From Planctomycetota bacterium (GTDB lineage Bacteria; Planctomycetota; Planctomycetia; Pirellulales; Pirellulaceae): DNA of 58,928 bases. Position numbers and translations under genes: made by a program. The notes beneath the pieces are model-generated. The model did no database searches, was not told the origin of the DNA, and was given only the letters and a program-made list of their open reading frames with translations. The stretch is taken from positions 1 to 58,928 of the forward strand of contig JACNKX010000138.1 of assembly GCA_014381825.1 (NCBI GenBank). Direction: 5' to 3'. This document shows positions 42,960-52,065 of this stretch, piece by piece; the stretch's first letter is position 1, and every line of letters begins with the position of its first letter.

Positions 42960-44327
42960 TTACGTCAAAACGGGTTCTAGCTCTTGTTCCTGATTTCGAA
43001 CTGCTTTCTTTTGTCTCAGAGCGACTTGGTAGGCCTTATTTGCAGCCGTCTCTGCTTCTGGCGAGAAGCGGACCAGCAACGCCGTAAACGAACAACCAAC
43101 GACGACAGCGCCGAGAATGAGCAGCGCGGTTGGCCAATCGACGGCACTCTTGAAAAGGAATCCTGCTGCGACCGCGCCAGCGTTTCCACCAGCTCCGACA
43201 ACGCCAGCGACCGCGCCGAGTGCCTTCTTGTTGATAAAAGGAACGACCGAGAAAGTTGCTCCTTCTGACATTTGGACGAACAGGCTGAAGAGAATTAGCG
43301 TCGGGATGGCCAGAGCCAGGACTGTCATCTGCGAGAACAGCATTAACGCGAGTCCTTCGCAGAACAACGCGGTAAACAACCAGAAGACTCGGCCCTTCAG
43401 CCCCCACTTGCCTCCGAACTTGTCGCCGAAGAGACCGCCAAGAGTTCGTGCGAAGATGTTCATCAAACCGAACAGAGCGGCAGCGGTCCCGGCAGCGGCA
43501 AGCCCAAGCCCGAAGTAATCGGCGAAATACAAAGCCGCAATGTTATTGATCGTTAGCTCAATGCCAAAGCACGCTCCGTAAATTACGAACAACGCCCAGA
43601 CGCGATGATCCTTACATGCTTCGAGGAACGCCCCGCTGACTTGCTTGCCTTCAGGCATCAAACCTTTCGCACGTAAGTCCTTGAAGTTTCCATCCGGCGC
43701 GTCTTGTGTCAGGAAGTAGTAGGCGACTCCGGTCAGGAAACAGATGATGCCAGCCGCAAACATCGAGGCTCGCCAACCGATAGCTTCGGTAAATCCAAGT
43801 GCTACGACGAATAAGGCAAAGACAGCTGGCATCACAACTTGGGTGACACCACCGCCAAGATTGCCCCAACCCGCCGACGTTGCGTTCGCCGTCCCGACAA
43901 CGTTGGGCGCGAACATCACGGAGGTATGATATTGAGTGATGACGAACGATGCCCCGATGGCACCGATCATCAAGCGGAAGATCAGGAAGGTTGTAAAGTC
44001 ATGTGCAAATCCGATTCCCATCACTGGCAACGAGCCGAGCATTAACAGCCAGGTATAGGCAAGTCGCGGCCCAACCCGATCACAGAACCAACCGATGAAC
44101 AGACGCGCTATCACGGTAATCGCGACGGATGAGATTATGCACCATCCGATTTGGTCTTTCGTCAAAGACAGTTCGTCACGCACGACGGTCATCAAGGGTG
44201 CGATACCGAACCAAGCAAAAAAGCACAGAAAGAAGGAAAACCAAGCCATGTGGAAGGCGCGGATCTGCGGCATTCCTAGCTTGAAAATGTTTCCCCAGAG
44301 CGATGTGGCTTTGTTCTGTAGTTCCAT
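42960..44327 (-). CDS. narK: NarK-type nitrate/nitrite transporter
   Basis: The 455-residue MFS protein has about 12 hydrophobic helices. The first loop carries the MFS motif (WFCDRVGPRLAYTWLL), and the nitrate signature of the NNP family appears twice in related form: SAGWGNLGGGVTQVVMPAVF and AGVVGAGGNAGAVAAGFLF. The substrate-binding arginine region (FLIFRLMIGAIGASFVIT) is intact. A long basic tail ends at residue 455. It faces away from the nitrate reductase operon across a 653-base divergent region, as expected for an uptake system co-regulated with it. Nitrate is the likely main substrate, as the operon lacks another uptake protein. Confidence 0.95.
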   Translation of the reverse strand: MELQNKATSLWGNIFKLGMPQIRAFHMAWFSFFLCFFAWFGIAPLMTVVRDELSLTKDQIGWCIISSVAITVIARLFIGWFCDRVGPRLAYTWLLMLGSLPVMGIGFAHDFTTFLIFRLMIGAIGASFVITQYHTSVMFAPNVVGTANATSAGWGNLGGGVTQVVMPAVFALFVVALGFTEAIGWRASMFAAGIICFLTGVAYYFLTQDAPDGNFKDLRAKGLMPEGKQVSGAFLEACKDHRVWALFVIYGACFGIELTINNIAALYFADYFGLGLAAAGTAAALFGLMNIFARTLGGLFGDKFGGKWGLKGRVFWLFTALFCEGLALMLFSQMTVLALAIPTLILFSLFVQMSEGATFSVVPFINKKALGAVAGVVGAGGNAGAVAAGFLFKSAVDWPTALLILGAVVVGCSFTALLVRFSPEAETAANKAYQVALRQKKAVRNQEQELEPVLT

Positions 44328-44566
44328 CTCAGTAGTTTCCTCTCACTAGCTCACGGTGTTACGGGATCAACACGGCGACGAGTCGCTAGACCCATTTTGT
44401 GCGCTGTGCATGACAACGATACTTTGAGCCGCCTAAGGAATAACCAAAGTTCCAGTGGTTCGGAGAGGAGAACTGCCGGTTGGTTTGCAAGCCGCGACCT
44501 TGGTCCTGGCTATCCCGCTCAATCATTAAAAAACTCGCCACGAAAAACGTGCGGAACAAAGGCATA

Positions 44567-44583
44567 CGCAAAGGACATGCCGG
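44567..44583 (-). promoter_or_regulatory. Weak sigma-54-like promoter facing the NarK gene
   Basis: On the minus strand the sequence CGGCATGTCCTTTGCG matches the consensus TGGCACGNNNNTTGCW with the essential GG and GC correctly spaced and two other mismatches in the -24 part. It would give a 5' leader of about 230 bases for the transporter gene, longer than usual, so the assignment is tentative. Confidence 0.35.
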
Positions 44584-44899
44584 AATTTGAGCTTGTACGT
44601 TCGAGCAATGATCATCTACGAGCGAGAAAGGACCGTAGCTAACGGCAAGTGCAAAAAACTCTTGTGATTCGGTTTCCACATAACGAATTTCACATACGTA
44701 GAGGCGATTGCAACGAGGTGACCTGATTGCCTGGAGCCTGCGCGTTGGTTGCTCATTCCTTACGCAAGAGGTTGACTTGGTTAACGAAGACCTGGGAAGC
44801 GCGAGCAAACGGTCCTCGCATGATTTGCAAGCAGTATGTTGACGATACCGTTGGAGTGTGCCCGACCGCGAGGTCTTGAGTGCGAGCCAACCGAGACTC

Positions 44900-44914
44900 T
44901 GGCACGCTGATTGC
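44900..44914 (+). promoter_or_regulatory. Sigma-54 (RpoN) promoter of the nitrate reduction operon
   Basis: TGGCACG, four bases, then TTGC is an exact match to the -24/-12 consensus. Transcription would start near 44926, about 55 bases before the first codon at 44981. This implies an enhancer-binding activator such as NtrC and control by nitrogen status, which fits the genes downstream. Confidence 0.85.
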
Positions 44915-44980
44915 GAGAGGGGATGGTGATCGCTCGGCGAATGCTCTCCTCTCCCACCGCCAGCGAGACGCACATGGCTC

Positions 44981-46741
44981 GTGTGCGCTTTCATTTCGTC
45001 AATCGTCGCGCAACTTGCTGCGCTCCCGCCTTCGATGCTTGCAATCGACCCTACTCCTTCGAACTCCTTCCTGCTCGACATGCTGCTGGAGAATCAGCAG
45101 AAAACGACCGCAGTTGAGAAGTTTGCGCAATTACATGACCGACTCGAGTTGCCGCTGCAAGTAAGGCATTATCGCGACCTGCTACCGACGTCACGGCCGG
45201 CGACCGATGAGCAATATGCTTTCGAGGTCGATTTGGATGGGTGTTCGGGCTGCAAGGCTTGCGTCACCGCTTGCCACAACTTGAATGGGCTCGAAGACGG
45301 CGAAGTGTGGCGTAGCGTTGGCTTGCTTCACGGTGGAACAACGGACCTGCCCGTCATTCAGCATGTGACGACGGCCTGTCATCACTGTGTCGAACCGGCC
45401 TGTCTACAAGGCTGTCCAGTGAAGGCTTACGAAAAAGATCCGATCACCGGAATCGTCAAGCATCTCGACGATCAGTGCATCGGCTGTCAGTACTGCATGT
45501 TGAAGTGTCCATACGACGTGCCGAAATACAGCAAGTCGAAAGGCATTGTCCGCAAGTGCGACATGTGTAGCGATCGCCTCGCCGCCGACGAGGCACCCGC
45601 CTGTGTTCAGTCTTGCCCAAACCAAGCGATTCGCATCCGCATCGTCAGTCAGCAACAGGTGATCGAAGAAAGTGAAAGCAATGTCTTTCTACCTGGTGTG
45701 CCTGAACCCGAATACACGCTTCCGACGACAATTTACAAGAGCGAACGCGTACTTCCGAGGAACGTGCTGCCCGCTGACTATTACAGTTCACGACCCGCTC
45801 ATGCACACATGCCGTTGATCGTCATGTTAGTGCTGACACAAATGTCGGTCGGTGCCTTCGTTGTCGAGCAGTTGCTCCAGTCGGAGCTAATTACTTTGGC
45901 TGGGGTCGCGACGACCGAGCATCTTCGCCCAGTGCAGCTGGTCGCGGCCTTGCTGCTGGGCTTCCTCGGATTGTTCGCGGCAATCTTCCATCTGGGAAGA
46001 CCGATGCTCGCGCATCGCGCCATCATCGGTTTGGCGACGTCTTGGCTCAGTCGCGAGATTCTGGCGTTTACGCTGTTTGCGGGCTTCGCGACAGCCTACG
46101 TCGTGGTCGCCTGTGCAAGTTACTTCGGTTGGAATTCAGGGCCGACTGTCGAGGCAACGCTTGGTGCGTTAGCTGGTGCTGCAGGACTGCTTGCGGTGGT
46201 GTGTTCAATGATGATCTACATCGATACTCGCCGAGTGTTCTGGGGTCCGCTGTTCACGGTGCCGAAGTTCTTCGGAACATGCTTGGTGTTAGGCGTTCCG
46301 ATCGCCTTGCTAATCTCTCTTGCCGCCGCTGCATGTTCCGCTGATCTAACGGTCGAACAGATCATCTCAAGCTACGGCTGGCAATTGTGTCGCGCGCTGA
46401 TCGTGATTGCGTGCGCAAAACTGATCTTCGAAGCAATGATCTTCGGTTCGTTGCGCCGTCCACGCCACACCTCATTGAAGCGAACGGCGCTCCTGCTGAA
46501 AGGCGAGCTAAGCATGGTCATGACCGCTCGCTTTGTAGTCGGAATGCTCGGCGGCATTCTGCTCCCGCTCATTCTGCTTAGCGAACGACAGTTGGCACCT
46601 GACGGTGGGTTCCAGCCGCTGTTTATTGGGATTATCGCGTTGCTAATGACCGGCCTTTGTCTCGCGGGCGAGTTTATCGAACGTTACTTGTTCTTCACGG
46701 CTGTCGTCGCACCCAAGATGCCAGGCACGCAAGCGACCTAA
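44981..46741 (+). CDS. DmsB-DmsC-like fusion: four-cluster ferredoxin with membrane anchor
   Basis: The protein has 586 residues. Residues about 80-225 are a DmsB/PhsB-like ferredoxin with four cysteine groups for [4Fe-4S] clusters: [11 protein letters not shown] (88-98), [13 protein letters not shown] (133-145), [11 protein letters not shown] (166-176) and CDMCSDRL with CVQSC (193-212). After a linker, about eight membrane helices (275-580) resemble the DmsC quinol anchor ([50 protein letters not shown]). No Tat or Sec signal precedes it, so the clusters should face the cytoplasm. It lies 14 bases before the nitrate reductase gene and is the likely electron donor, from quinol or another carrier. 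The start (GTG at 44981) is uncertain; residue M19 is an alternative. Confidence 0.92.
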
Positions 46742-46755
46742 TAGAAACCCACTCG

Positions 46756-48987
46756 ATGAATTCGATCGTTTCCAAAATACTTCCGCAATTCCACGAACGG
46801 AGCGGCCCACTCACCAGTGACCTGCTGCTCGCGCCCGGTGAGTTCGGTCTCGGCAAAGTGCCGCTGAAGCGAAAGCCAGATGCGACAACTTCGATGGTGT
46901 GTGGTTATTGTTCAACTGGCTGTGGATTGAACATTCACTTGAAGGACGGAGAAGCCATCAACCTTACGCCGAGTACAGACTATCCGGTGAATCTAGGCAT
47001 GGCTTGCCCGAAGGGATGGGAGGCCCTGACGGTCCTTAAGTCATCGCATCGGGCAACAACACCTCTGCTTCGAAACTCGAAGGGTAAATTGGTCGCTGTC
47101 GATTGGAACCAGGCGATGCAGGAGTTTTGCGGTCGCTTCAAAGCGATTCAGGCGGAGCACGGAAACGAGTCCGTCGCCTTCCTTAGTACAGGTCAAATCG
47201 CAACCGAGGAGATGGTGTTGCTTGGCAGCCTTGCGAAGTTTGGCATGGGCTTGCTGCACGGTGATGGCAACACGCGGCAATGCATGGCAACCTCGGCGGT
47301 TGCCTATAAACAGTCCTTCGGCTTCGACGCTCCGCCCTATTGCTACGCTGATTTTGAAGAGTCGGACGTGATTGTGCTGATCGGATCGAACCTGTGTCTG
47401 GCTCATCCAATCATGTGGCAACGTATTTGCCGCAATCCTCACAATCCAGAGATCATCGTCGTCGATCCGCGTCGCACTGAAACGGCAATGTGTGCGACGC
47501 AGCACTTGGCGATCAATCCGAAAGCCGATCTCGAACTGCTCTACGGCATCGCCAATATCCTGATCCAACGCGGATGGATCGATGATGAATATGTCGAGCA
47601 GCACACGGCTGGCTTTGATGAATTCAAAGCATTCGTCGAATCTTACACGCCAGAACGTGTCGCTCACTTGACTGGTCTTTCAATCGCTGATTTGCAACAG
47701 TTCGCCAGTGCGATTCATGCAGGGAAGCGTGTGTCGTTCTGGTGGACGATGGGAGTGAATCAAAGCTATCAGGGAGTTCGCACGGCACAGGCGATTATCA
47801 ACCTGGCGTTAATGACGGGAAACATCGGTCGACCGGGCACGGGCGCTAACTCGATCACGGGCCAGTGCAATGCGATGGGATCTCGTTTGTTTAGCAACAC
47901 GACAAATCTGCTGGGAGGTCGCGACTTTCAAAACGGCGAGCACCGCCAAGCAGTCGCCGAAACGTTAAACCTTGATGCGGAGCGGATTCCCGATAAGAAC
48001 AGTCTTGCGTACCCTGACATTATCGAAGGCATCCTGCGCGGCAAGATCAAGGGCTTGTGGGTCGTCTGCACAAATCCAGCCCACTCGTGGATCAACCAGA
48101 ACACCTGTCATGACATTCTCGATCGCCTCGACTTCCTTGTCGTGCAAGACATGTACGCAAACACCGAGACGGCTCAGATTGCAGATCTTGTGTTGCCGGC
48201 AGCCGGGTGGGGTGAAAAGGAAGGAACGTTCATCAACTCCGAAAGACGTGTCGGGATCATTAAGAAAGTCTCGCGGGCACCGGGGCAGGCGCTCGCGGAC
48301 TTTGCTATTTTCAAACTCATTGCTCAGTACTGGGGCTGCGGCGAGATGTTTGAAAGCTGGAACGAACCGGAAGACGTCTTTCAAGCCATGAAGCGACTGT
48401 CACGTGATCAGCCTTGTGATATCACAGCCATTCGCGACTATCGGATGCTTGACGAATGTGGCGGGATTCAATGGCCGTTTGTCGAAGAGGGCAGCGATCA
48501 GAAATTCGAAGCGACCGTACAAGAACGACGCCTTTTTGAAGACGGTCACTTCTATCACGAAGACGGTCGTGCAAGGTTTCTGTTCGAAGAGCCTCGTGAA
48601 CTGCCAGAGAAGCCGAACGTCAAGTTTCCGTATCTGCTGCTTACCGGGCGCGGCACGGCATCTCAGTGGCACACGCAAACACGGACCAGCAACTCGCCGA
48701 CACTGAGGTCGCTCTATCCAAAGGATATCTACGTCGAGATCAATGCCGAGGACGCAAGCCGCGAGAAGATTGAACCGAATCAGTGGGTGACGGTGGAGTC
48801 CCAGCGAGGCCGAGTGCGCGCTAAAGCGTTTGTCACGCGAACGGTTCGCCCGGGCCAAGTCTTTATCCCAATGCACTACCACAGTGTGAACAAACTAACT
48901 CACGCGCACTTCGATCCCTACTCGAAACAACCTTCTTACAAAGATTGTGCTGTGCGGATCAGACATCCCGAACCGTGGGATGACTGA
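46756..48987 (+). CDS. nasA: Assimilatory nitrate reductase catalytic subunit
   Basis: The protein has 743 residues from ATG ([20 protein letters not shown]). Four cysteines for a [4Fe-4S] cluster lie at positions 49, 52, 56 and 84 ([22 protein letters not shown]). The Mo ligand is C176 in [18 protein letters not shown]. Other bis-MGD signatures are [51 protein letters not shown] and [20 protein letters not shown]. No twin-arginine leader is present, so it is cytoplasmic. The short form without a fused [2Fe-2S] or flavodoxin tail matches NarB/NasA types that need a separate electron donor. Gene order and the 14-base gap point to the DmsBC-like fusion as that donor. Confidence 0.95.
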
Positions 48988-49044: not shown

Positions 49045-52000
49045 ATGATTACTAAGAATACCGAAACGATCGTTGTCGTCGGGAACGGAATGGTCGGCCA
49101 TCGCTTCTGCGAGAAGTTGGTCGAGTTCGATGTCACAAAGCAATATCGCGTCGTCACTTTCTGTGAAGAGCCGCGCGCCGCCTACGATCGCGTTGGGCTG
49201 ACGTCGTTCTTCGCACATCGCGATGCCGAACAACTCATGCTGGCGAATCTCGAATGGTATCGCCGCAACGGTGTGGAACTGCATATCGGTGACCGCGCGA
49301 ATACGATCGATCGTAAGAATCAACGAGTCGTCTCCGATAAGGGCCACGAGATTGAATACGACCACGTTGTGTTTGCAACCGGATCGTATCCCTTTGTGCC
49401 GCCTATCGATGGGATCAAACTACGTGGTGTGTTCGTCTATCGAACGATCGAAGATCTACGTCGAATCATTGCTTATGGGCAACATATCAAGAAAGCGGCG
49501 GTGATCGGTGGCGGATTGCTCGGTCTCGAAGCCGCGAAGGCTGCCTACGATCTGGGTCTCGAGACGAATGTGATCGAATTCAACGACCGATTGATGCCGC
49601 GGCAGATTGACGACGCTGGCTCGCTCTTACTCGTCAAATCAATCGAAGATCTCGGGGTACAAGTCCACCTCAACAAAGCAACGAAGGAGATTCAAGGCGA
49701 TGGTTGCGTGGAACGCATCGTATTCAGTGATGGCGAAGTACTCGACGTTGACATGATCATCGTTTCCACCGGAATCAGACCGCGCGACGAACTGGCGCGA
49801 GACTGCAAAGTCGATGTCGGTGAGCGAGGCGGGATCTTGGTCAATGATCATCTGCAAACTTCCGATCCCCAGATTTATGCGATCGGCGAATGCGCGTTGC
49901 ACGCCGGAATGGTCTACGGATTGGTTGCGCCAGGTTATGAGATGGCGGAGGTTGTGGCGAAGAACTTCTGCGGCGAGGAGCGTTCCTTCCGAGGTACCGA
50001 CCTGTCGACGAAACTGAAGTTGATGGGAGTCGACGTCGCGAGCTTCGGTAACAACGACGCCGGTCCAGATATTGCGAAGCCGCTCGTCTATGAAGATCCG
50101 TTTGGAGGCGTCTACAAAAAACTGTTGTTCAATCACGAAGGCACGAAGTTGTTGGGTGGAGTACTCGTTGGCGATGCCTCGGACTTTGGAACGTTGTCGA
50201 TGTTGGCGAAGAGTCCCGATCCGCTGCCGTATCCACCGGGTGAGTTGATATTGGGAAGCGGTGGCGGAGCTGCGATCGGCGGAATCGACAGTTTCTCGGA
50301 CGAGGCACAAGTCTGTTCGTGCAACAACGTCACGAAGGGAGAGATCTGTGCGGCGATTCGCAAAGGAGATCTCTCGACCCTCGGCGAAGTAAAGGGCTGC
50401 ACGAAGGCGGGCACTGGCTGCGGAGGCTGCTTGCCTCTCGTGACCGATCTGTTGAACGAAGAGCTTTCTGCTGCCGGGAAGAGCGTCAACAAGAGTCTCT
50501 GCGAACACTTCTCGTTTACTCGACAGGAGCTGTACGAGATAGTTCGCGTCAAACAGATAAAGACCTTCAACGAATTGCTCCACAGCCATGGCTCGGGGAA
50601 TGGCTGCGAGATTTGCAAGCCGGCAGTTACTTCGATTCTGGCCGGATTATGGAATGAGCAAATCACCGAGCAGGATCAGCACACGCTCCAAGACACGAAC
50701 GATCGCTTCCTAGCCAACATTCAAAGAGGGGGCCTCTATTCAGTCGTGCCGCGAGTCCCTGGTGGAGAGATCACGCCCGACAAGCTGATGGTACTTGGCC
50801 AAGTTGCCAAGAAGTACGGCCTATACACCAAGATCACGGGAGGCCAACGCATTGATCTCTTCGGTGCCCAGGTCCAGCAGTTGCCTGACATTTGGGAAGA
50901 GTTGGTCGACGCTGGCTTCGAGAGCGGACACGCGTATGGAAAGTCATTGCGAACGGTGAAGAGCTGCGTCGGAACAACCTGGTGCCGATATGGCGTACAA
51001 GATTCAGTCGGGTTTGCCATTCGACTGGAAGAGCGTTACCGAGGCATTCGCGCTCCGCACAAGATCAAGATGGCGGTGTCGGGCTGTGTTCGTGAATGCG
51101 CCGAGGCACAGTGCAAAGACGTTGGCCTCGTCGCGACGGAGACAGGCTACAACCTCTATGTCTGCGGCAACGGCGGTGCAAAACCCCGCCATGCCGAGTT
51201 ACTGGCAGCAGACCTCGATGAGGAAACGGCCGTTCGCTACATCGATCGTTTCGTGACCTACTACATCCGAACAGCGGACAAGTTGAATCGTACCGCAGTT
51301 TGGGTCGAGAAGATGGAAGGCGGCATCGAGCACCTGAAGGACGTTGTCATCAACGACAGTCTTGGCATTTGCCAAGAGCTAGAAGAGCAGATGCAATATC
51401 TCGTTGATACGTACAAGTGTGAATGGAAGGAAGTTGTCAACGATCCAGAGAAGCGAAAGCGGTTCCGGCAATTCGTCAACACCGACGAAGCAGAACCAGG
51501 CATTGAAATCATCGGCCAACGCGAGCAGCACCGCCCCGCCGACTGGCCCAAAGACTTTGTGCCAATTTCGTCTCTAACCCGCGCAAGCAGTCTCTCCCCT
51601 TCTCCCCCTGTCAACGAAAACAGTCGAAAGCCCGCCCCCAACACGAAATGGATCAAAGTAGGAACCGCCTCCGATTTCCCCAAGGACGGAGGCGCAACGA
51701 TTAAGTATGGGGAAGTGCAGATCGCCGTCTATAACTTCACGAGTCGAGGTGAGTGGTATGCGTGTCAGAATATGTGCCCCCACAAGAATGCGTTTGTGCT
51801 CTCTCGTGGAATCATTGGTAACGCGGGTGAATCGCCAAAAGTTTCCTGCCCACTCCACAAGAAGCCTTTCTCATTGCAAACCGGCGAGTCGTTGTCGGGT
51901 GAAGAGTTCTCGCTCAAGGTCTTTCCAGCGAAGTTAGAAGGCGAAGACGTCTATGTTCTGCTTCCACCGCAATCGCAACTCGACGCGCTGCTATCGACCG

Positions 52001-52065
52001 ATCTCCATTGTGTCCGCGATTGCCGCGATACGAAGGCCACCGAAACCGAGTGTGCCGTTGTGTGA
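49045..52065 (+). CDS. nirB: NirB-NirD fusion, NAD(P)H-dependent assimilatory nitrite reductase
   Basis: The protein has 1006 residues from ATG (MITKNTETIVVVGNGMVGHR), with GGGAGA upstream. Two nucleotide-binding folds (VVVGNGMVGHRFC for FAD, AAVIGGGLLGLEAAKAAYDL for NAD(P)H) are followed by a BFD-like [2Fe-2S] domain (CSCNNVTKGEIC, KAGTGCGGCLP). The sirohaem/[4Fe-4S] core has SCVGTTWCRYGVQDS and MAVSGCVRECAEAQCKDVGL. After a Ser/Pro-rich linker (about residues 840-865) a Rieske NirD domain closes the chain (CQNMCPHKNA, VSCPLHKKPFSL). It reduces nitrite to ammonium in the cytoplasm. NirB and NirD are separate proteins in most bacteria. The gene starts 57 bases after nasA. Confidence 0.95.
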   Translation: MITKNTETIVVVGNGMVGHRFCEKLVEFDVTKQYRVVTFCEEPRAAYDRVGLTSFFAHRDAEQLMLANLEWYRRNGVELHIGDRANTIDRKNQRVVSDKGHEIEYDHVVFATGSYPFVPPIDGIKLRGVFVYRTIEDLRRIIAYGQHIKKAAVIGGGLLGLEAAKAAYDLGLETNVIEFNDRLMPRQIDDAGSLLLVKSIEDLGVQVHLNKATKEIQGDGCVERIVFSDGEVLDVDMIIVSTGIRPRDELARDCKVDVGERGGILVNDHLQTSDPQIYAIGECALHAGMVYGLVAPGYEMAEVVAKNFCGEERSFRGTDLSTKLKLMGVDVASFGNNDAGPDIAKPLVYEDPFGGVYKKLLFNHEGTKLLGGVLVGDASDFGTLSMLAKSPDPLPYPPGELILGSGGGAAIGGIDSFSDEAQVCSCNNVTKGEICAAIRKGDLSTLGEVKGCTKAGTGCGGCLPLVTDLLNEELSAAGKSVNKSLCEHFSFTRQELYEIVRVKQIKTFNELLHSHGSGNGCEICKPAVTSILAGLWNEQITEQDQHTLQDTNDRFLANIQRGGLYSVVPRVPGGEITPDKLMVLGQVAKKYGLYTKITGGQRIDLFGAQVQQLPDIWEELVDAGFESGHAYGKSLRTVKSCVGTTWCRYGVQDSVGFAIRLEERYRGIRAPHKIKMAVSGCVRECAEAQCKDVGLVATETGYNLYVCGNGGAKPRHAELLAADLDEETAVRYIDRFVTYYIRTADKLNRTAVWVEKMEGGIEHLKDVVINDSLGICQELEEQMQYLVDTYKCEWKEVVNDPEKRKRFRQFVNTDEAEPGIEIIGQREQHRPADWPKDFVPISSLTRASSLSPSPPVNENSRKPAPNTKWIKVGTASDFPKDGGATIKYGEVQIAVYNFTSRGEWYACQNMCPHKNAFVLSRGIIGNAGESPKVSCPLHKKPFSLQTGESLSGEEFSLKVFPAKLEGEDVYVLLPPQSQLDALLSTDLHCVRDCRDTKATETECAVV

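Follow-up and report, generated by a model that had tools for sequence, protein, structure and literature searches.

In their NADH-linked (NasB/NasC), ferredoxin-linked and CysJ-fused forms, assimilatory nitrate reductases combine a cytoplasmic NasA-type enzyme with a transporter and with either NirB-NirD or NirA. Not every bacterium with a NasA-type reductase has an established electron donor for it; for NasC without NasB, PMC4378227 lists NADH, flavodoxin or ferredoxin as the only candidates. A different set of described systems, DmsABC and YnfFGH of E. coli, is built from a subunit carrying molybdenum bis(pyranopterin guanine dinucleotide), a four-cluster ferredoxin and an eight-helix DmsC anchor with an HLG histidine, and all of these parts recur in the locus examined here. 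That locus lies on a 58,928-nucleotide stretch of contig JACNKX010000138.1 (hereafter the window, meaning the whole stretch of DNA that was analysed), part of a host genome of 9.69 Mb (GCA_014381825.1) whose nearest named relatives are Planctomycetota. It encodes a DmsB-DmsC fusion protein, followed by a NasA-type nitrate reductase.

We consider it highly probable that this fusion is an inverted, cytoplasm-facing DmsBC module that takes electrons from menaquinol and hands them to NasA, in the service of nitrate assimilation. We also think it likely that such loci, titled to six phyla, encode a widespread kind of assimilatory nitrate reductase in which an inverted single-chain DmsBC taps the quinone pool directly, giving an electroneutral quinol:nitrate reductase on the cytoplasmic side that is dedicated to nitrogen assimilation. 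No description of a DmsBC-linked assimilatory nitrate reductase was found in the open literature; subscription papers lay outside that search, and prior notice is possible.

Results

Gene layout and domain assignment

The nitrate genes of the window are a NarK-like transporter on the minus strand, then the fusion, NasA and NirB-NirD, these three all on the plus strand. Positions are as follows (aa, amino acids).

45035–46741, plus strand: DmsB-DmsC fusion, proposed quinol dehydrogenase of NasA; 568 aa from ATG 45035, 553 aa from ATG 45080
45215–45649, plus strand: four-cluster ferredoxin half of the fusion; 16 Cys, residues 55–179 counted from ATG 45080
45809–46699, plus strand: eight-helix DmsC-type anchor half of the fusion; Fe-S-side loops strongly positive
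45989–45991, plus strand: His304 codon of the fusion; HLGRP motif where helix 2 is predicted to end on the Fe-S side; alignment counterpart of the E. coli DmsC HLG histidine
46756–48987, plus strand: NasA-type cytoplasmic molybdenum nitrate reductase; ATG 46756, 743 aa, without flavin or [2Fe-2S] domain
47281–47283, plus strand: Cys176 codon of NasA; lines up with Cys in the Cys-Met motif of NapA
49045–52065, plus strand: NirB-NirD fusion; assimilatory nitrite reductase that depends on NADH
42960–44327, minus strand: NarK-like nitrate/nitrite transporter, divergent

The first-pass annotation of this DNA had proposed a single-chain DmsB-DmsC fusion upstream of a NasA lacking a flavin or [2Fe-2S] donor domain of its own, and the Pfam matches agree on both counts. 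Fer4_11 (1e-20) and then DmsC PF04976 (4.1e-17; 62.9 bits against a gathering cut-off of 22.3) lie on the one frame of the fusion. NasA matches only Fe4S4, molybdopterin and dinucleotide-binding families, and is therefore seen as free of a flavin or [2Fe-2S] domain. The frame of the fusion is open from 44981 to 46741 on the plus strand, but 44981, at which the gene had been placed, is merely its first GTG. Because the starts of several relatives lie, as judged by eye, about 13–18 residues ahead of a conserved LLxEQQ motif, ATG 45035 is favoured, with ATG 45080 as a possible alternative. Between the fusion stop (46739–46741) and the NasA start codon, ATG 46756, lie the 14 bases originally reported; the TTG start at 46657 listed for the NasA frame overlaps the fusion. 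The open reading frame (ORF) list of the window holds no further candidate donor gene between NarK and the end of NirB-NirD, and an Rfam search of 44250–45120 gave no match at E values up to 0.5.

The reductase displays the features of a NasA-type cytoplasmic nitrate reductase, namely a Cys-Met motif, an N-terminal 4Fe-4S motif, the absence of a signal and an adjoining nitrite reductase. Cys176-Met is kept in 89/89 NasA sequences and aligns with the same pair in NapA, at a position where FdhF has selenocysteine-His (Sec-His) and DmsA a different stretch. The best-scoring NCBIfam model was Fdh-alpha TIGR01591 (517.3 bits, below its cut-off of 666.25); a formate dehydrogenase identity was ruled out by the presence of Cys-Met rather than Sec-His, together with neighbours that fit a nitrate reductase. 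NirB (TIGR02374, 1077 bits against 578.35) and its Rieske subunit NirD (TIGR02378, 107.4 against 74.65) both score above their cut-offs and form one chain in the window (49045–52065). The transporter falls narrowly short of the NarK model TIGR00886 (294.3 against 311.7 bits) and scores above the cut-off of Pfam MFS_1.

Conservation of the gene pair

A scan of genome contigs confirmed at least 572 relatives of the fusion, and the best 80 were kept as named loci. These are mostly from Planctomycetota, joined by Acidobacteriota, Myxococcota, Verrucomicrobiota (Spartobacteria), Lentisphaerales and Poribacteria; phyla were assigned from record titles, the records being mostly metagenome-assembled genomes (MAGs), with isolates of Sorangium cellulosum among the Myxococcota. 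A NasA match follows the fusion on the same strand in 80/80 of these best 80 of at least 572 relatives, the frame being broken in one of them (L140). In a larger set, in which several contigs are present twice, NasA follows in 109 of 111 loci. The misses are L052, where 246 nucleotides (nt) are left after the fusion, and L172 (genome G311); in L167, NasA comes only after 1226 nt.

A set of 60 genomes, the host's own included, contained some match to the fusion in at least 54 and a full or near-full-length match in 25 (again including the host), the remaining matches being ferredoxin-type only. The same 25 genomes have a NasA of at least 59% identity, with NasA and fusion on separate contigs in G036. 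An even sample of the phylum, 392 genomes including the host's, was searched at E values up to 1e-60 for the fusion and 1e-130 for the reductase, and yielded the fusion in 44, the reductase in 47 and both in 43. For 41 of the 43, the reductase match shares the strand of the fusion and begins within 400 nt of it (largest gap 232); the exceptions are G359, where the two lie on different contigs, and G191, with a gap of 1284 nt. In this sample a distant NasA (37–39% identity) occurs alone in G217, G274, G278 and G373, and a distant fusion alone in G311. The G311 protein (L230:2191-5448) likewise joins DmsB to DmsC, and its ferredoxin half shares 44% identity with E. coli DmsB.

Samples of other phyla gave fusion matches in 13/282 genomes (the phylum of Sorangium), 42/337 (that of the Spartobacteria MAG) and 25/347 (that of the Vicinamibacterales MAG). 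In the loci fetched, NasA follows in 12/12 from Myxococcota, 37/41 from Verrucomicrobiota and 17/24 from Acidobacteriota; in two of the 37 verrucomicrobial loci other genes intervene, and the distances to NasA are 2082 and 2530 nt. The seven Acidobacteriota misses show a partial fusion-profile match and, upstream on the same strand, a weaker molybdoenzyme match (131–189 bits). These loci look DmsABC-like, and some of them may be fused too. A plasmid tblastn search with the fusion returned no record covering 80% of the query.

Because order and strand are the same in loci titled to six phyla, the pairing is more than chance, and the early view that the two genes belong together is borne out by the best 80 relatives and by the planctomycete genomes alike. 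To the accompanying question whether the fusion always stands beside nasA in planctomycetes, the 43 sampled genomes with both genes answer yes for all but G359 and G191, and the pair is not confined to that phylum. A fusion without nasA, which had been named as a finding that would count against the proposal, is seen in part: four of the 41 verrucomicrobial loci lack NasA in the 11–18 kb fetched downstream, and distant fusions occur in other contexts.

Membrane orientation and quinol site

An AlphaFold2 model of the fusion, built from 52 sequences (mean predicted local distance difference test score 85, predicted template modelling (TM) score 0.86), has eight long helices after the ferredoxin half. 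In Foldseek searches the ferredoxin half ranked FdnH (1kqf_B) at the top and also matched PsrB (2vpw_B; TM score by target 0.76, E 7e-8). The anchor half matched PsrC (2vpw_C; TM score by target 0.71, E 0.015), as well as NrfD-type subunits of alternative complex III (0.46–0.48).

The loops on the Fe-S side carry 13.6 lysines plus arginines (10–19) against 3.1 (0–6) on the other side, and the same lean is seen in 87/87 nonredundant fusions; four divergent planctomycete fusions have 12–15 against 0–4. The outward-facing controls lean mildly the opposite way, with 3 on the Fe-S side against 6 in E. coli DmsC, 3 against 7 in YnfH and 3 against 6 in Plesiomonas DmsC. A DmsA twin-arginine and a gene for a twin-arginine translocation (Tat) chaperone were observed for the control systems, whose anchors belong to exported enzymes. 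The loop charges thus predict a ferredoxin half in the cytoplasm and an anchor inserted the opposite way round from that of E. coli. This agrees with the cytoplasmic placement given in the first-pass annotation, and none of the 87 fusions turns its ferredoxin half outward by this measure. A twin-arginine search of 80 fusion and 80 NasA N-terminal extensions gave two matches (L160 and L165), both upstream of plausible starts by eye; there is no credible Tat signal in either protein, as had already been noted for the reductase of the window.

The 16 cluster cysteines and His304 are invariant in 91/91 fusions (87 main and four divergent), and the equivalent of His304 is also present in four controls. 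In E. coli DmsC this histidine belongs to the menaquinol site. Since helix 1 of the fusion begins on the Fe-S side in the model, the end of helix 2, with His304, is placed on that side as well. Putative quinol oxidation by the fusion is supported by the conserved histidine and the predicted fold. W322 and R325 (in SWLSRE) are invariant in 91/91 inward-facing proteins; A/G/P and N take their places in the three controls that face outward.

Discussion

We propose that the fusion and NasA form a complex that would be a mirror image of E. coli DmsABC, alike in its parts and placed on the opposite side of the membrane. The eight-helix half would oxidise (mena)quinol beside His304 on the cytoplasmic side, and electrons would run through the four [4Fe-4S] clusters of the cytoplasmic half, enter NasA at its N-terminal [4Fe-4S] cluster and reach the molybdenum site, where nitrate would be reduced to nitrite. 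Ammonium would then be made with NAD(P)H by NirB-NirD, or by NirA, which in some operons has a flavoprotein of its own. Because the quinol site is predicted to be cytoplasmic, proton release and proton uptake would take place on the same side, and the step would be electroneutral and build no gradient itself. The original suggestion that nitrogen uptake could be coupled to membrane energy is corrected to this extent: a gain in gradient could come only via upstream dehydrogenases such as complex I, energy being saved by sending NADH through complex I first. If this model is true, a quinol donor links nitrogen assimilation to the respiratory chain, any quinone-reducing substrate can pay for nitrate reduction, and NasA competes with oxygen for quinol. 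The fusions and their outward-facing relatives would also offer a natural pair for the study of membrane topology, one fold in two orientations, with W322 and R325 marking the inward form.

Quinol-linked modules mostly serve respiration, and NirB is used in dissimilatory ammonification too. It is conceivable, then, that the enzyme is a respiratory or redox-balancing nitrate reductase, with quinol drained to nitrate for electron disposal and ammonium as a by-product of NirB-NirD. We regard this as improbable. A quinol site on the predicted cytoplasmic side would yield no proton gradient, and a separate NarG-like gene is present in the host genome (PF00384 on contig C163; a 720-aa piece scores 913 bits to TIGR01580, cut-off 1084), which may give the organism a respiratory nitrate reductase in addition to NasA. 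The neighbours are NarK with NirB-NirD, or NirA, with ABC-transporter genes in some loci (by eye), and they support the assimilatory context that had been assumed from the start. Furthermore, the fusion is found in Sorangium cellulosum, an aerobe; no documentation of nitrate growth of Sorangium was found in the open literature searched. Methylacidiphilum fumariolicum SolV does grow on nitrate as its nitrogen source, and PMC3404531 gives for it a nitrate ABC protein (Mfum_140012) and a nitrate reductase (Mfum_140014); the gene number between these two, Mfum_140013, may belong to a fusion of the present kind.

A conventional soluble donor, be it ferredoxin, flavodoxin or a CysJ-like flavoprotein, might instead reduce NasA, leaving the fusion with some other role. 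Known assimilatory reductases use such donors, and four loci have the fusion and no NasA nearby. Candidates of this kind are those named in PMC4378227. CysJ-like or flavodoxin genes also adjoin NirA in some operons. Across 81 loci (the 80 named ones and the window), the nitrite reductase is NirB in 52, NirA in 20 and neither within the stretch covered in 9, and a CysJ-like match lies inside the locus for 6 of the 20 NirA loci. No CysJ-like match was found within the stretch covered in the 52 NirB-type loci, the window included, other donor kinds not having been searched in all 81, and the fusion is for this reason the likeliest donor of NasA in operons like that of the window. With the reductase gene nearly always directly after the fusion and all 16 ligands kept in the ferredoxin half, we judge the soluble-donor explanation very improbable. 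L051 (L051:1847-5423) and similar loci lack NirB and use a NirA-like gene for nitrite reduction; after it, L051 encodes a CysJ-like flavoprotein with an extra PF04060 Fe-S domain. A periplasm-facing fusion serving an exported enzyme, as in DmsABC, would suit the homology to DmsB and DmsC and is extremely improbable in view of the opposite loop charges and the lack of a credible twin-arginine motif in any plausible N-terminus.

Several observations weigh against a quinol-oxidising, inward-facing partner of NasA. The fusion falls short of the NCBIfam equivalog cut-off for DMSO_dmsB (TIGR02951, 129.4 bits against 214.1), and the reductase falls short of those for NasA/NasC (NF041323/NF047855, 465.5 against 1000 and 441.5 against 1100) and likewise of that for NapA, so that it is called NasA because of motif and context. 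The positive-inside rule is a statistical one. In an initial count that set the loop boundaries differently, the fusions gave 15.3 against 3.9 (101/101) and E. coli DmsC was near even (4 against 5); the strength of the charge case consequently lies in the fusions' own bias and not in the controls. The fusion of G311 is itself inward-facing by prediction (12 against 2 lysines plus arginines) and has no NasA match on its 12.4-kb contig, so inward topology alone is no proof of a NasA partner. Four verrucomicrobial loci (L289, L292, L296 and L297, from G984, G1040, G911 and G1060; longer stretches L331–L334) have no NasA in the 11–18 kb fetched downstream, and their fusion adjoins a NirA-like gene with 47–50% identity to NirA of L051; NasA may lie elsewhere in these genomes, or the fusion may have another partner. 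Together with G311, the seven Acidobacteriota loci place distant DmsB-DmsC proteins in other contexts, which counts against exclusivity. The flavoprotein or flavodoxin genes next to NirA in some operons could reduce NasA, and because of the NarG-like gene, nitrate use in the host need not rest on NasA alone. Finally, a NasA encoded on a Cetobacterium plasmid adjoins a 4Fe-4S protein and a flavin adenine dinucleotide (FAD) oxidoreductase, not a fusion.

A tree of 47 reductases splits the fusion-linked ones into a main group and a divergent planctomycete group; the long branch of the Cetobacterium NasA comes between the two. Two separate origins, or a single origin followed by an exchange in Cetobacterium, require an equal number of changes on this tree. 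The plasmid locus (L218:6980-11697) holds NasA (45%), the 4Fe-4S protein, the FAD oxidoreductase and a TDT family transporter as annotated, and is apparently a case of donor exchange. Among other NasA relatives, the one in Hymenobacter has an adjoining rubredoxin gene, and the one in Acetobacter is fused to a sulfite-reductase flavoprotein. It seems common for NasA to exchange donors, the fusion being the membrane version.

Two further arrangements were seen among related operons. L222:3483-6956 and L223:4783-8246 belong to another molybdoenzyme operon, with a NasA-like subunit with Cys-Met (32–33%) and a separate four-cluster ferredoxin; L222 continues with a small Rieske protein (Pfam) and then an ORF whose likeness to a TDT transporter was judged solely by eye. 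This operon possibly encodes a second membrane-linked nitrate-type reductase. In L226:4769-6550 a ferredoxin is fused to an NrfD-type anchor (593 aa), and the 954-aa ORF that comes next matches NasA weakly; this fusion is of the same kind, with an anchor of another family.

Comparison with known systems

Relative to DmsABC and YnfFGH, the system described here has DmsB and DmsC in one chain, an anchor predicted to be inverted and no Tat signal. It also has Cys-Met at the molybdenum position, where the ligand in DmsA is Ser, and it stands in a context of nitrate assimilation. Polysulfide reductase PsrABC (2vpw) shares the fold of both halves, and menaquinone is bound in its structure; PsrB and PsrC are separate chains, and PsrABC faces outward with an anchor of the NrfD family. 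NarGHI likewise performs cytoplasm-facing, quinol-linked nitrate reduction, with a beta subunit that carries four clusters. It differs in its NarG-type catalytic subunit and in a haem b anchor with the quinol site near the outer face; the fusion-NasA step, unlike that of NarGHI, is expected to be electroneutral. The NADH-linked, ferredoxin-linked and CysJ-fused assimilatory reductases rely on a soluble electron donor, whereas here a membrane quinol module would take that place.

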